This document shows, one piece after another, positions 22,686-34,513 of a DNA stretch of 64,000 bases (position 1 is the stretch's first letter; every line of letters starts with the position of its first letter). Source of the stretch: Luteolibacter yonseiensis (GTDB taxonomy: Bacteria; Verrucomicrobiota; Verrucomicrobiia; Verrucomicrobiales; Akkermansiaceae). The stretch lies in assembly GCF_016595465.1 (NCBI RefSeq), contig NZ_JAENIK010000009.1, positions 62,001 through 126,000 on the forward strand, read 5' to 3'. Below the pieces are notes generated by a model. That model saw only the letters and a program-made list of their open reading frames with translations. It was not told the origin of the DNA and did no database searches. The translations under genes were made by a program, and so were the position numbers.

Positions 22686-24470
22686 GTGTCCGCCGTCACG
22701 AACATTTCCACCTACCGCTTCGCCGAACTTTCCGGTCTCAAGGATCTGCGCGAGGAGCTGATCGCCGATTGCAAGTCCTGGGAACTCAAGGGGACCATCC
22801 TGCTGAGCATCGAGGGTATCAACATGTTCGTCGCGGGCGATGCGGCGTCGATCGACAGGCTGCTGGAAAAGCTCCGGAGGATTCCCGGCCTCGAAGGGTT
22901 GGAGCCGAAGGTGAGCATCAGCGACAAGCAGCCGTTCAACCGGATGCTGGTGCGCATCAAGCGCGAGATCATTTCCTTCGGCATGGAAGGCATCCGCCCG
23001 GCGAACTACACCTCTCCGAAGCTCCCTGCGGCGGAGCTGAAGCGGTGGCTGGACGAGGGGCGTCCGGTGACGCTGCTCGACACGCGCAACGACTACGAGG
23101 TGAAGCTCGGCACCTTCAAGGGGGCGCTCATCCCGAACATCAACACCTTCCGTGAGTTTCCCGATGCGGTCCGGAAGCTGCCGGAAGAGCTCAAGGACCA
23201 GCCGGTGGTCATGTTCTGCACCGGCGGCATCCGCTGTGAGAAGGCCGGGCCCTTCATGGAGCGGGAGGGATACAGGAACATCTACCAACTGGACGGCGGC
23301 ATCCTGAAATATTTTGAAGAAGTCGGAGGAGATCACTACGACGGCGAGTGCTTCGTCTTCGACCAGCGCGTCGGAGTCGATCCCGCCCTGCGCGAGACGG
23401 ATCACGCCATCTGCTACGCCTGCCAGGCACCGCTCGACGCCGCGGACCAGGAAGATCCGCGCCACGTGGAGGGGGTGAGCTGCCCGCATTGTTTCAAGAG
23501 CGCGCCCGAGCGCATGGCGGAGCGGATTTCCTTCCTGCACGAGGCCATCGCGAAGGTGGCGGATCCGCTGCCCGGCTCGATCCCGCAGGAAAACCGCCGT
23601 CCGGTGAACATCCCCGCCGCCCAGGACCGCAAGACGCTGTTGGAAGCGCTGGTGGAGATTTTCCCACAGATTTCCGCAGGGGAATGGGAGGCGCGCTGCG
23701 ATGCCGGCCGCTTCGTCAATTACGGCGGCACCGTGCGCGGCAAGGACCACGTCGTCCGTGCGGGCGAGCGCGTGGTGCAGATTTTTCCGGCGGACACCGA
23801 GCCGCCGGTGTCGGCGGACATCCGGGTGGTTTACGAGGATGAGGCCATCGTCGTGGTGCGCAAGCCCGCGCCGCTGCCGATGCATGCCAGCGGCCGGTTC
23901 CACCGGAACACGCTGCAGCACATCCTGAACGAGGTCTATGCGCCGAAGTATCCGCGTCCGGTGCACCGGCTGGACTCGAACACCACGGGGCTGGTCGTCT
24001 TCGCCCGCACCCGGAACTTCTGCCGGGTGCTGCAGCGGCAGTTCCTGGACGGTCTGGTGGACAAGCGGTATCTGGTCACGACGCAGGGGTTGCCGGAGCA
24101 CGACTCGTTTTTCTCCGAAGCCCCCATTTCCGCGGAACCGGACGTGATGGGTACCCGCGTGATCGATGAAACCGACGGCCTGCCCTCGCGCACCGACTTC
24201 CAGGTGCTGGAGCGTCGCGCCGACGGGACCGCGCTGCTGGAGGCGAAACTCGGCACCGGCAGGACGAACCAGATCCGCGTGCACCTTTGGCAACTGGGCC
24301 TGCCTGTCGCGGGCGATCCGGCCTATCTGCCCGGTCATCAGACGGGCGACACGCAGACGCTCGATCCGGCGGCGGCACCGCTCCAGCTTCATGCATGGAA
24401 ACTTTCCTTCCGCCACCCGGCGAGCGGGGAAATGATGACCTTTGAGACGGAGCGGCCGGACTGGGCGTGA
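22686..24470 (+). CDS. TrhO (tRNA U34 hydroxylase, rhodanese type) fused to RluA-family pseudouridine synthase
   Basis: This is a 594-residue fusion. Residues 1-105 form the acylphosphatase-like N-domain of TrhO/YceA. Residues about 115-215 form a rhodanese domain with F-C-T-G-G-I-R-C-E-K (Cys178, Cys184), the typical TrhO active-site loop. C-x2-C pairs at 243/246 and 266/269 suggest a zinc knuckle. Residues about 318-370 resemble the S4-like domain of RluA enzymes. Residues about 375-594 form an RluA pseudouridine synthase with H-R-L-D-S-N-T-T-G (catalytic Asp430) and G-R-T-N-Q-I-R-V-H. TrhO makes 5-hydroxyuridine at wobble U34; RluA enzymes isomerise uridines in rRNA or tRNA. The reading frame is continuous. 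Confidence 0.9.
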   Translation: MSAVTNISTYRFAELSGLKDLREELIADCKSWELKGTILLSIEGINMFVAGDAASIDRLLEKLRRIPGLEGLEPKVSISDKQPFNRMLVRIKREIISFGMEGIRPANYTSPKLPAAELKRWLDEGRPVTLLDTRNDYEVKLGTFKGALIPNINTFREFPDAVRKLPEELKDQPVVMFCTGGIRCEKAGPFMEREGYRNIYQLDGGILKYFEEVGGDHYDGECFVFDQRVGVDPALRETDHAICYACQAPLDAADQEDPRHVEGVSCPHCFKSAPERMAERISFLHEAIAKVADPLPGSIPQENRRPVNIPAAQDRKTLLEALVEIFPQISAGEWEARCDAGRFVNYGGTVRGKDHVVRAGERVVQIFPADTEPPVSADIRVVYEDEAIVVVRKPAPLPMHASGRFHRNTLQHILNEVYAPKYPRPVHRLDSNTTGLVVFARTRNFCRVLQRQFLDGLVDKRYLVTTQGLPEHDSFFSEAPISAEPDVMGTRVIDETDGLPSRTDFQVLERRADGTALLEAKLGTGRTNQIRVHLWQLGLPVAGDPAYLPGHQTGDTQTLDPAAAPLQLHAWKLSFRHPASGEMMTFETERPDWA

Positions 24471-24686: not shown

Positions 24687-24890
24687 AGCACCAAAGGTGC
24701 GGAATGGGAGAGCCCGGGGTGAGCGAAGCGGAACCCCGGGGCATGGACCGCCCCATTTCCCAAGTCCTGAAAGGACGAAATCAAGGGTGCTGCTGCGCGC
24801 CATGGATGCCGTCCTTTCAGGACTCCATATGCTTTGTGGTTCACTCCCAGGGCGTTGCCCTGGGCTCTCCCATTTCGCACCCTTGGTGCT
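24687..24890. repeat. 204-bp imperfect palindromic element (REP/MITE-like)
   Basis: Outer 29-nt arms (24687-24715 and 24862-24890) are reverse complements at 27 of 29 positions. Inside lie an 8-bp stem (24713-24720 with 24733-24740), an exact 13-nt inverted pair (24764-24776 and 24811-24823), and a hairpin at 24846-24864. No transposase is adjacent and no target duplication was recognised. This could be a non-autonomous or RAYT-mobilised element. Confidence 0.75.
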
Positions 24891-24962
24891 GAAGATGACA
24901 CCTTTGGTGCTGGAGATGACACCCTTGGTGTTGGAGATGACACCTTTGGTGGTGAAGATGAC
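24879..24962. repeat. Four tandem 21-bp units
   Basis: Four consecutive 21-nt units (starts 24879, 24900, 24921, 24942) share ACC-Y-TTGGTG...GATGAC with a few substitutions. The first overlaps the right arm of the palindrome, so the array seems to have grown from that end. Confidence 0.85.
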
Positions 24963-25049
24963 ACCGCGCAGGACCGTCGTATGAGACGCCGACTTGGGAT
25001 GGAGGAAACGATGCCACCAGGCGATGCCATCTGGCACCACCGCGTTTCC

Positions 25050-29075: not shown

Positions 29076-29154
29076 GGGAAGAGCGGCGGGGAATAGGCTA
29101 AATGTCCGCCCCGGCCAAGCGCAATCGAAAGCGGTGCCGGGGATGGCCGGGGGA

Positions 29155-29427
29155 TCAGCGGGCGGCCCCGATTTTTTTCAGATCGAATACGTGAACCGAC
29201 CGGTTGAAGGAGCCGGCGATGATTGGTGCCTCATCCGGGGAGGGATTCAAGGTGGTCGCATTCCATCCCGGCGGCAGGTCGGAATTCAGGAAATACCGTG
29301 TGAAATCCGTCGAAAAATCGTGATTTTCCCGAAACCTTTCGGGTTTTGTGGCGTTGATGTTGCAAATACCGACATTTTTTATCGCGGGCTGGGATTTTTT
29401 TCCGAATAAATTCCGCAGGTCCTCTTC
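29155..29427 (-). pseudogene. 5'-truncated gene remnant, about 90 codons
   Basis: On the minus strand a 90-codon frame ends at 29155 and is bounded upstream by a stop at 29428-29430. It has no usable start until a TTG deep inside. Its translation reads like the end of a genuine protein, with P-P-G-W-N-A-T-T-L-N-P-S-P-D-E-A-P and then A-G-S-F-N-R-S-V-H-V-F-D-L-K-K. The last part resembles the final strand of a WD40/beta-propeller blade. It is probably the decayed 3' end of a gene lost from this spot. The adjacent repeat gene at 29478 runs the other way. Confidence 0.45.
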
Positions 29428-29477
29428 TCAATGTCGGGAATTGCCCAAAGAATCGAAATCCAACCAACCACACAAAT

Positions 29478-29972
29478 ATGAAACTGCTCCTCACCGCGCT
29501 CTGCGCGTCATTCATGGTCGTCCCAGCCTTCGCCTCCGAGTGCGAGAAGGGCAAGTGCGACAAGGAAAAGAAAGAAGAAGGCACCGTGCTCCTCGCCGGT
29601 GACTGCGACAAGTGCAAGAAAGGCGAAGAGAAGAAGGAAGAAGGCGCCCTCGCCCTCGCCGGTGATTGCGACAAGTGCAAAAAGGGCGAAGAGAAGAAGG
29701 AAGAAGGCGCTCTCGCCCTCGCCGGTGATTGCGACAAGTGCAAGAAGGGCGAAGAGAAGAAAGAAGAAGGCGCCCTCGCCCTTGCCGGTGACTGCGAAAA
29801 AGGCAAGTGCGACAAGGACAAGAAGGAAGAAGGCACCCTCGCCCTCGCCGGTGACTGCGAAAAAGGCAAGTGCGACAAGGACAAGAAAGAAGAAGGCACC
29901 CTCGCTCTCGCCGGTGACTGCGAAAAGGGCAAGTGCGACAAGGACAAGAAGGAAGAAGGCACCCTCGCCTGA
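29478..29972 (+). CDS. Secreted Cys/Lys/Glu tandem-repeat protein, possible metal binder
   Basis: A signal peptide (about residues 1-19, ending A-F-A-S) leads into seven 21-residue units. The order is B-A-A-A-B-B-B: type A is D-C-D-K-C-K-K-G-E-E-K-K-E-E-G (C-x2-C), type B is D-C-E-K-G-K-C-D-K-D-K-K-E-E-G (C-x3-C). Units are joined by hydrophobic A-L-A-L-A-G. The last unit is cut short by the stop. Fourteen Cys in pairs, set among Asp, Glu and Lys, suggest binding of a soft or transition metal, but no family is recognised. It has its own terminator and a divergent remnant upstream. Confidence 0.75.
   Translation: MKLLLTALCASFMVVPAFASECEKGKCDKEKKEEGTVLLAGDCDKCKKGEEKKEEGALALAGDCDKCKKGEEKKEEGALALAGDCDKCKKGEEKKEEGALALAGDCEKGKCDKDKKEEGTLALAGDCEKGKCDKDKKEEGTLALAGDCEKGKCDKDKKEEGTLA
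29538..29972 (+). repeat. 63-bp tandem repeat array inside the Cys-repeat gene
   Basis: Unit starts are 29538, 29601, 29664, 29727, 29790, 29853 and 29916 (last partial). Neighbouring units are nearly identical at DNA level, with mostly silent changes, so the array probably expands and contracts by recombination or slippage. Confidence 0.9.
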
Positions 29973-29995
29973 TTTTTCCGGACCACCATCCCTCT

Positions 29996-30029
29996 CAAAA
30001 ACCGCTGGAACTTCTCCGGCGGTTTTTTT
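29996..30029 (+). terminator. Terminator after the Cys-repeat gene
   Basis: The arm ending at 30010 pairs with 30014-30025 (A-A-A-A-C-C-G-C-type stem with one G-U pair) and is followed by a T7 run. Confidence 0.75.
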
Positions 30030-30089
30030 GTGCCCGCGCGGAGAGCTCCCGACGGTTGACCCCATCCTCCGGATTCATACTCTGCCCAC

Positions 30090-33780: not shown

Positions 33781-33868
33781 GGGTCCTCACCGAGGTGGGG
33801 TGTTCCTTTTGGCTTCCCTTCGGCCCGCGCGTCGGTGAGTGTGGAAACAGATTGAAACCCCATCTCTC

Positions 33869-34513
33869 ATGAAAATCCCCGCCATCCTTTTCCTCGCGGC
33901 AGCCCCGTTGATCTTTCCCGCCTCGCTCCAGGCGAAAACATGGAAGGAAGCCGGTTCGGAGCGATCGCTGGAAGGCGAGTATTCCAAGACCGAGGGCGAC
34001 CAGGTCGTCATCCTCCGTCCGAACGGGACCACGGTGAAGATCCCGTTGGCGAAGCTCACACCCGAAGACCGGAAATTCGTCGCCGAAGCCTCGGCCGCCA
34101 AGCCCGCTGCACCGGAAGCCGCAGCGGCCGCCGACACCGATGTCTTCAAATGGGAGACGGATTACGAGGTCGCCAAGAAGCGGGCCAAGGATGAGAAAAA
34201 GGACATCCTCGTGGACTTCACCGGTTCCGACTGGTGCGGCTGGTGCATCAAGCTGAAGAAGGAAGTCTTCGATAAACCGGAGTTCCAGGAATACGCGAAG
34301 AAGCACCTCGTCATGCTCGAACTCGACTTCCCGCGTAAGAAGCAACTGCCGGCGAAGGAAAAGGAACAGAACGAAAAACTCTCCCAGGAATTCCAGATCG
34401 AAGGCTTCCCGACCATCCTCCTCCTGAAGGCCAGCGGCCGGGAAATCGCCCGCACCGGTTATCAGGAAGGCGGCCCGGAGAAATACATCGAGCACCTGAA
34501 GGGGCTGAAGTAG
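33869..34513 (+). CDS. SHD1 domain-thioredoxin-fold secreted protein
   Basis: A signal peptide (about residues 1-21) is followed by an SHD1-like beta domain (about 25-65: R-S-L-E-G-E-Y, then V-K-I-P-L-A-K-L-T-P-E-D-R-K-F-V), an Ala/Pro linker (about 68-90) and a thioredoxin-7-type domain (about 95-214). The active site is D-W-C-G-W-C, a redox C-x2-C, with a cis-Pro context G-F-P-T-I. It probably works as a periplasmic disulfide reductase or isomerase. The 88-nt gap from the DUF1501 gene leaves co-transcription open. ATG 33869 is chosen because the frame before it lacks a signal. Confidence 0.85.
   Translation: MKIPAILFLAAAPLIFPASLQAKTWKEAGSERSLEGEYSKTEGDQVVILRPNGTTVKIPLAKLTPEDRKFVAEASAAKPAAPEAAAAADTDVFKWETDYEVAKKRAKDEKKDILVDFTGSDWCGWCIKLKKEVFDKPEFQEYAKKHLVMLELDFPRKKQLPAKEKEQNEKLSQEFQIEGFPTILLLKASGREIARTGYQEGGPEKYIEHLKGLK

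Follow-up and report, generated by a model that had tools for sequence, protein, structure and literature searches.

The gene at positions 29478 to 29972 (+ strand) of the window, that is, of the whole 64,000-nucleotide stretch of the Luteolibacter yonseiensis genome analysed here, encodes a 164-aa repeat protein rich in Cys, Lys and Glu, which has relatives across its genus and which, judged from its sequence, is probably an exported, intrinsically disordered and modular thiolate metal buffer. In the proposed mechanism, the Sec pathway would carry the protein into the periplasm or outside the cell, where each unit of ~20 residues would offer mostly two Cys, in pairs ranging from C-x2-C to C-x5-C, within a soluble, nearly charge-balanced Lys/Asp/Glu chain with short hydrophobic linkers between the units. 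Neighbouring units would act together in chelating soft metals (Cu(I), Zn, Cd or Ag), and the number of units, changing through tandem duplication and deletion, would set the capacity. What the sequences show directly is the ORF with its repeats, a family with varying unit number, a conserved promoter element, a terminator and, in this genome, an operator core that the gene has in common with a bufferin-type MNIO operon. We infer that the protein is exported, that its thiols are reduced, that it binds metal and is induced by stress, and which metal is concerned; metal or thiol buffering is backed indirectly, by the paired Cys and by the common operator core.

The ORF list and the translation agree with the earlier note on the coordinates, strand and reading frame of the gene. 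The export signal claimed there is present by inspection, in the form of a Sec-type signal peptide (MKLLLTALCASFMVVPAFA, 29478 to 29534, + strand) without a lipobox, which ends in AFA and is presumably cleaved before the SEC that comes next; it is well kept among relatives, as seen for the N-terminal 20 residues in an alignment of 18 members. Seven units then follow on the + strand in the order B-A-A-A-B-B-B, confirmed by translation and repeat analysis: unit 1 (type B, 29535 to 29597), units 2, 3 and 4 (type A, 29598 to 29660, 29661 to 29723 and 29724 to 29786) and units 5, 6 and 7 (type B, 29787 to 29849, 29850 to 29912 and 29913 to 29969). The unit size of 63 bp (21 aa) first described holds for units 1 to 6, while unit 7 measures 57 bp (19 aa) and ends within its linker, as GTLA followed by the stop. 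Type A units read GDCDKCKKGEEKKEEGALALA, with the Cys pair C-D-K-C and hence the C-x2-C spacing previously noted; type B units read GDCEKGKCDKDKKEEGTLALA, with the pair C-E-K-G-K-C, so that the C-x3-C once assigned to them has to be replaced by C-x4-C. A units have the linker GALALA and B units GTLALA or GTVLLA; of the 145 residues in the mature chain, 35 are K, 26 E, 16 D and 14 C.

At the DNA level, the array amounts to 6.8 copies of period 63 (TRF, score 513), and the 63-nt periodic identity reaches 0.88, whereas 2000 shuffles average 0.29 and peak at 0.37. The three A units differ from one another by 4, 4 and 4 codons per pair and the last three B units by 2, 1 and 3, none of them nonsynonymous, where ~0.2 of random changes are expected to be synonymous. 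Between the first B unit and the other B units there are 5 nonsynonymous codon differences. These synonymous-only changes among like units support the gene as coding and count in favour of the metal buffer. They also bear on the view that the protein is a neutral low-complexity by-product of repeat slippage, which would account for near-identical tandem units and which we find hardly credible, given that like units differ only synonymously, that the gene is kept in 67 of the 73 genomes of the genus (a second point for the metal buffer) and that its promoter element is conserved. The gene is single-copy in its own genome, where a search returned one match (1.7e-94), plus three at E 0.24-0.55 that are the gene's own antisense and two chance-level matches.

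No Pfam or NCBIfam model over the cut-off, and among them no metallothionein family, matches the window protein, nor does any PDB sequence at E<=0.1, which upholds the earlier remark that no match to a known metallothionein or bufferin was recognised. Among the titles listed by a literature search, with most subscription papers outside its reach, none concerns such a family. Relatives by sequence (E<=0.001) occur in 62 of the 73 genomes of the genus; a profile search adds G013, G022, G025 and G030 (the matches in G013, G025 and G030 being partial and situated at contig starts), and a search with the operator core adds G011, a divergent member missed by the protein searches, which together make the 67 carriers. 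No copy was found in G005, G010, G023, G031, G041 and G052 (6/73), two of which are <60% complete; these genomes are counted against the metal buffer. In a wider sample of the bacterial family, 94/244 genomes and 5/16 genera match, and in a sample of the order 32/239 genomes and 6/48 genera, with one genome, G255, outside the family; in a sample of the phylum, all 13 matching genomes out of 337 lie within the family, and none of the 20 genomes listed for group g3 matches. Relatives with names are found in Haloferula sp. BvORR071 and in MAGs labelled Akkermansiaceae, Verrucomicrobiaceae, uncultured Verrucomicrobia and, once, Akkermansia muciniphila; plasmids gave no match.

The composition of the family was assessed on the loci of the genus (60) and of other genera (20), from which L219 was removed as an MNIO precursor. 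Statistics refer to the 57 complete proteins of the genus, the window's included, with the loci cut by contig ends (L063, L088, L089, L102) dropped. Behind residue 20, the median protein has a length of 105, 11 Cys and a net charge of -2, and the mature chains consist of 10.7% Cys, 27.4% K, 16.3% E and 12.7% D, with as little as 1.1% His and 0.1% Met. A typical unit joins two Cys to a K/E/D spacer and a hydrophobic linker: exactly two Cys are present in 204 of the 267 Cys-bearing parsed segments, spaced by x2 in 107, x3 in 43, x4 in 35, x5 in 17 and otherwise in 2, and the Cys count is even in 43/57 proteins. This composition and pairing count for the metal buffer. The suggestion that protein length varies by repeat number is borne out, since about 2-9 units are present between species, as counted approximately with a regular expression; G003 has 7 units and G071 has 5, with a nearly identical signal peptide and nearly identical unit types.

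The arrangement of the Cys is also what has to be weighed against the main rival of the metal buffer, a thiol redox buffer or a disulfide-linked envelope or matrix protein, in which C-x2-C pairs would switch between the dithiol and the disulfide state, or link one chain to another, and metals would be irrelevant. Cys pairs placed beside lysines, the export signal and a strongly charged chain for which no fold is predicted suit such a role, and in an oxidising periplasm the Cys could be present as disulfides, which counts against the metal buffer. We nevertheless consider the redox or cross-linking role unlikely: because the Cys of a pair are separated by anything between 2 and 5 residues and unit types mix freely, a flexible ligand fits better than a tuned redox site, and the operator core in common with the bufferin-type operon (see below) counts against it as well. 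AlphaFold2 gives no helix beyond the signal peptide, with low confidence, and since the mean pLDDT is only 42 (18 sequences) no site geometry is visible, a point against the metal buffer; disorder is likely, and a low-confidence model without a fold fits it and proves nothing.

The surroundings of the gene differ from locus to locus. In 31/60 loci of the genus tgt lies upstream and divergent, with yajC and secDF beyond, and in 23/60 mutT lies downstream, some contigs being too short for these genes to be seen; at other loci the repeat gene adjoins what we take to be tlyA, enolase or nuoG homologues. Among the recognised genes at these loci (many single-locus neighbours are not among them) there are none for metal transport or metal sensing, so that metal genes as neighbours were dropped as a candidate, and this counts against the metal buffer. 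An intrinsic terminator hairpin of 13 pairs with a T-rich 3' arm is predicted at 29997 to 30027 (+ strand; fold -19 kcal/mol, z -6.3), and a simple scan finds hairpins 3' of 51/57 loci, against 20/61 control upstream pieces; a consensus scanner does not list the hairpin at 29997-30027. The gene thus looks like a stand-alone gene, placed next to housekeeping genes, whose own control region is kept across different neighbourhoods. Two further features of the window may be recorded here: a 21-bp tandem repeat of 4.2 copies at 24878-24965, between secDF and a fusion ORF (22686-24470) that by its appearance we take to join a TrhO-like protein with a rhodanese domain to an RluA-like pseudouridine synthase, and, 4 kb downstream of the repeat gene, an exported thioredoxin-like protein with a CGWC motif (33839-34513).

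The control region carries a conserved candidate promoter or operator element at 29396 to 29441 (+ strand), with the core GAATAAATTC-N12-TCTCA at 29404-29430. The element, of ~46 bp and ~90 nt before the start codon, has the form AATTTT..GAATAATTTCC.CTGGCG...CTCT.A.....GG.TA and recurs across the repeat loci. When scored with a matrix made from relatives without the window site, the window site reaches 26.4, whereas random 200-mers drawn from the window have a 99% quantile of 1.3 and never exceed 5.8, and in leave-one-out scoring 55/61 loci stand above the 99% level of such 200-mers, these loci not being independent because they are related. In a sequence-model scan of 13 genomes, the repeat-gene site was the best hit in 10, of which all except that of G022 (9 of the 10) lay in the training set of the model; another site came first in G001 and G027, and none in G048. 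A scan for the sigma-70 consensus over 29076-30089 gave no match. Possession of its own promoter element counts for the metal-buffer reading. As to a regulator, the MNIO clusters L164:4880-6373 and L168:18-1057 (genomes G007 and G029) contain an ECF-like gene of the sigma-70 family, and L164 and L168 also contain a Cys-containing protein of ~110 aa without a Pfam match, a candidate anti-sigma factor, with DoxX in L164. This pair was rejected as regulator of the repeat gene: relatives of the small protein occur in only 6/73 genomes of the genus, so that the pair cannot explain a genus-wide promoter.

Outside the window, the same genome carries a bufferin-type operon (L162:2861-5116; G000:C12, L111/L162), which encodes an exported precursor together with a DUF2063 protein and an MNIO enzyme (PF05114, E 1.1e-100). 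Judged by inspection, the precursor carries three DDCPGKDK repeats (CPGK/K-E) with one Cys each and lacks both EGKCG and CxxxxC, two motifs that PMC12452194 names. The control regions of this operon and of the repeat gene have a core element in common. A first pattern, GAATAAWNTYNNCTGGCG with <=2 mismatches, was written from repeat-gene sites only, before the MNIO upstream regions were examined; it has 25 sites in the genome (reversed control, 7), one of which is found 95 nt upstream of the MNIO-operon precursor gene, where the chance of one site in a 150-nt target is about 3e-4 by our arithmetic. At 2 mismatches this pattern misses the repeat-gene site of the window itself, which reads CAGGTC where the pattern has CTGGCG, and this is counted against the metal buffer. 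A core, GAATAAWTTY-N12-TCTSA, was defined afterwards from sites already seen, and at <=1 mismatch it occurs twice in the 5.7-Mb genome, both times exactly (reversed control, 1), once upstream of the repeat gene and once upstream of the MNIO operon.

Across the 73 genomes, the core has 14 exact sites in 13 genomes (control, 0). Seven precede repeat genes (G000, G008, G011, G054, G057, G065, G071) and three precede MNIO precursors (G000, G027, G028), where chance would give about 4e-5 within 150 nt upstream of the 12 MNIO operons; the other four lie before genes we take to be LysM-like, sigma-factor-like and L11-like, and inside a presumed penicillin-binding-protein-like ORF. Since the core was chosen after its sites had been seen and the three MNIO operons are alike, we count it as one event. 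The exact core is absent from 60/67 repeat genes, and its presence at just 7/67 is counted against the metal buffer. In a matrix test on ten MNIO upstream regions (nine precursors plus L165, without L219), 3/10 stand out, with background fractions of 0.0016, 0.0065 and 0.016 (n=618), the other 7 are unremarkable and none exceeds the background maximum (8.3 vs 8.4 in 618); this, too, is counted against the metal buffer.

The common core raises the question of how the repeat family relates to bufferins. Bufferins are reported to chelate excess copper, which counts for the metal buffer, and one oxazolin type contains a variable number of 17-residue repeats with two EGKCG motifs each (PMC12452194). 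Bufferins, including the MNIO-modified Buf_EGKCG/oxazolin type, are Sec-exported and Cys-rich; the repeat family is Cys-rich too, with a Sec signal that is clear by inspection, and resembles that one oxazolin type in its variable number of short repeats. A beta-helix model is reported for bufferins (PMC12452194), while the repeat family has no predicted fold. K/E/D spacers and hydrophobic linkers also set the repeat family apart. Nearly all bufferin genes have an MNIO in the same genome; here, MNIO genes occur in 12/73 genomes of the genus (14 places), all of them carriers of the repeat gene, so that 12/67 carriers, the own genome included, have one and no MNIO was found in the other 55. A tblastn search of the 80 loci with MNIO and DUF2063 proteins hit only the MNIO precursor locus L219 and nothing at the 79 repeat loci, whose flanks cover about 1-11 kb a side, four loci ending at a contig end in or just behind the gene.

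The Cys motifs differ as well. C-x-G-K-type motifs account for 41/44 Cys in ten MNIO-linked precursors (nine of the genus plus that of G090; L165 and L175 were omitted as other types, and L168, L173 and L174 had no clean precursor of this type upstream) versus 9/900 in 76 repeat proteins, in which EGKC is found 10 times and EGKCG never; DUF2282, another mark of bufferins, is not recognised in the window protein at the Pfam cut-off. Because an MNIO is found in only 12/73 genomes and the Cys motifs differ, the repeat protein is not itself a bufferin, and on co-occurrence and Cys motifs the MNIO was rejected as partner of the repeat gene. What the two groups have in common is a plan of signal peptide, Cys module, K/E/D spacer and EGT-hydrophobic linker or tail, and this similar layout of the MNIO precursors is counted for the metal buffer; in G035, the string GTLIAGKD is found in both the MNIO precursor and the repeat protein. 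The tails end in I-L/I in 10/10 MNIO-linked precursors, versus -LA and the like in the repeat family. A profile comparison gives no support for homology of the two outside the linker, matching 10 linker columns only (probability 16, E 0.0016), and this counts against the metal buffer. The repeat family may, then, work like a bufferin, but it fails the tests for being one.

These data also weigh on the explanation that the protein is a bufferin or RiPP precursor without a linked enzyme, modified in trans by an MNIO. Presence in the same genome, the common operator core and a similar layout and linker speak for it, as does the published report of precursor genes unlinked to MNIO genes (PMC12452194). 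Set against the 55 carriers without an MNIO found, the near absence of C-x-G-K-type motifs and of EGKCG, and flanks free of MNIO, we hold modification in trans to be very unlikely. Several other MNIO loci were observed. In L219 (G090, same bacterial family, other genus), an MNIO operon has a precursor with seven repeats, the first five of DKDDCPGKDKEKKEETVLAGK type and the last two lacking Cys, and this is the closest layout link between repeat proteins and MNIO precursors. L174:1379-6909 (G022) holds a second, divergent MNIO gene and a gene for a small Lys-rich peptide, next to what we assume to be a P450-like gene and a long radical-SAM-like ORF, possibly another peptide-modification cluster; in L175:162-1302 (G070), a short exported peptide whose only CEGC lies close to the C-terminus precedes a partial and divergent MNIO match.

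The linkers allow yet another explanation, namely that the product is a polyprotein cut at its linkers (...TLA before D/G-x-C), which would release dithiol metallopeptides of ~20 residues. The linkers resemble the protein's own N-terminal signal-peptidase site (AFA before SEC) and recur at unit ends, and all 76 full-length proteins (57 from the genus, 19 from other genera) have at their C-terminus a hydrophobic dipeptide of the broadly defined linker type, most commonly TLA (40/76). Processing of this kind is nonetheless very improbable in our judgement, since the linkers LLA, IIA, LVA, KLA and FA are also allowed, no dedicated protease gene was recognised nearby and the pattern could come from in-phase duplication alone. 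A wider form of the metal-buffer reading, which we put forward tentatively and expect to be wrong rather than right, would have one operator govern two branches of an exported metal buffer, a near-universal one of enzyme-free dithiol units, with their number tuned by slippage, and an optional one of an MNIO-converted K/E-rich repeat protein. The free-thiol branch would then be an analogue of bufferins that carries no modification, and in the boldest form a free-thiol polyprotein would be processed at every LA linker to yield dithiol metallopeptides.

Among other metal-binding systems, bacterial metallothioneins such as SmtA and MymT are small, cytosolic and Cys-rich proteins with few aromatics and thiolate ligands. 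The repeat family is like them small and Cys-rich, with paired Cys and few aromatics (57 proteins), and differs in its signal peptide, its tandem units and the lack of a match to their families. The Csp copper storage proteins, some of which are exported, are Cys-rich copper stores built as four-helix bundles lined with Cys, whereas the repeat protein has no fold predicted by AlphaFold2 (low confidence). SilE, whose metal ligands are His/Met, and PcoE, which is SilE-like, are periplasmic metal sponges. SilE is described as exported, intrinsically disordered and proposed to soak up metal (PMC5008109), and the repeat family is likewise probably exported and disordered. The presumed ligands of the latter are Cys, not the His/Met of SilE, and no sil, pco or cus genes were recognised beside the repeat gene. 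The repeat family is near bufferins, SilE-type sponges and metallothioneins, without agreeing with the full definition of any of them.

Environmental relatives of Akkermansia have in common an unnamed exported, Cys/Lys/Glu-rich repeat protein that is probably a sponge for toxic metals. If this is true, exported thiolate metal buffers would include an unnamed class, spread across the lineage, that works without a modifying enzyme, and an enzyme-free buffer would stand alongside an enzyme-modified, bufferin-type system, with a core common to both in the genome of L. yonseiensis. Comparing both systems in one organism would be a direct test of what MNIO modification adds to metal buffering, and the variation in unit number between species would offer a natural series relating ligand number to capacity.
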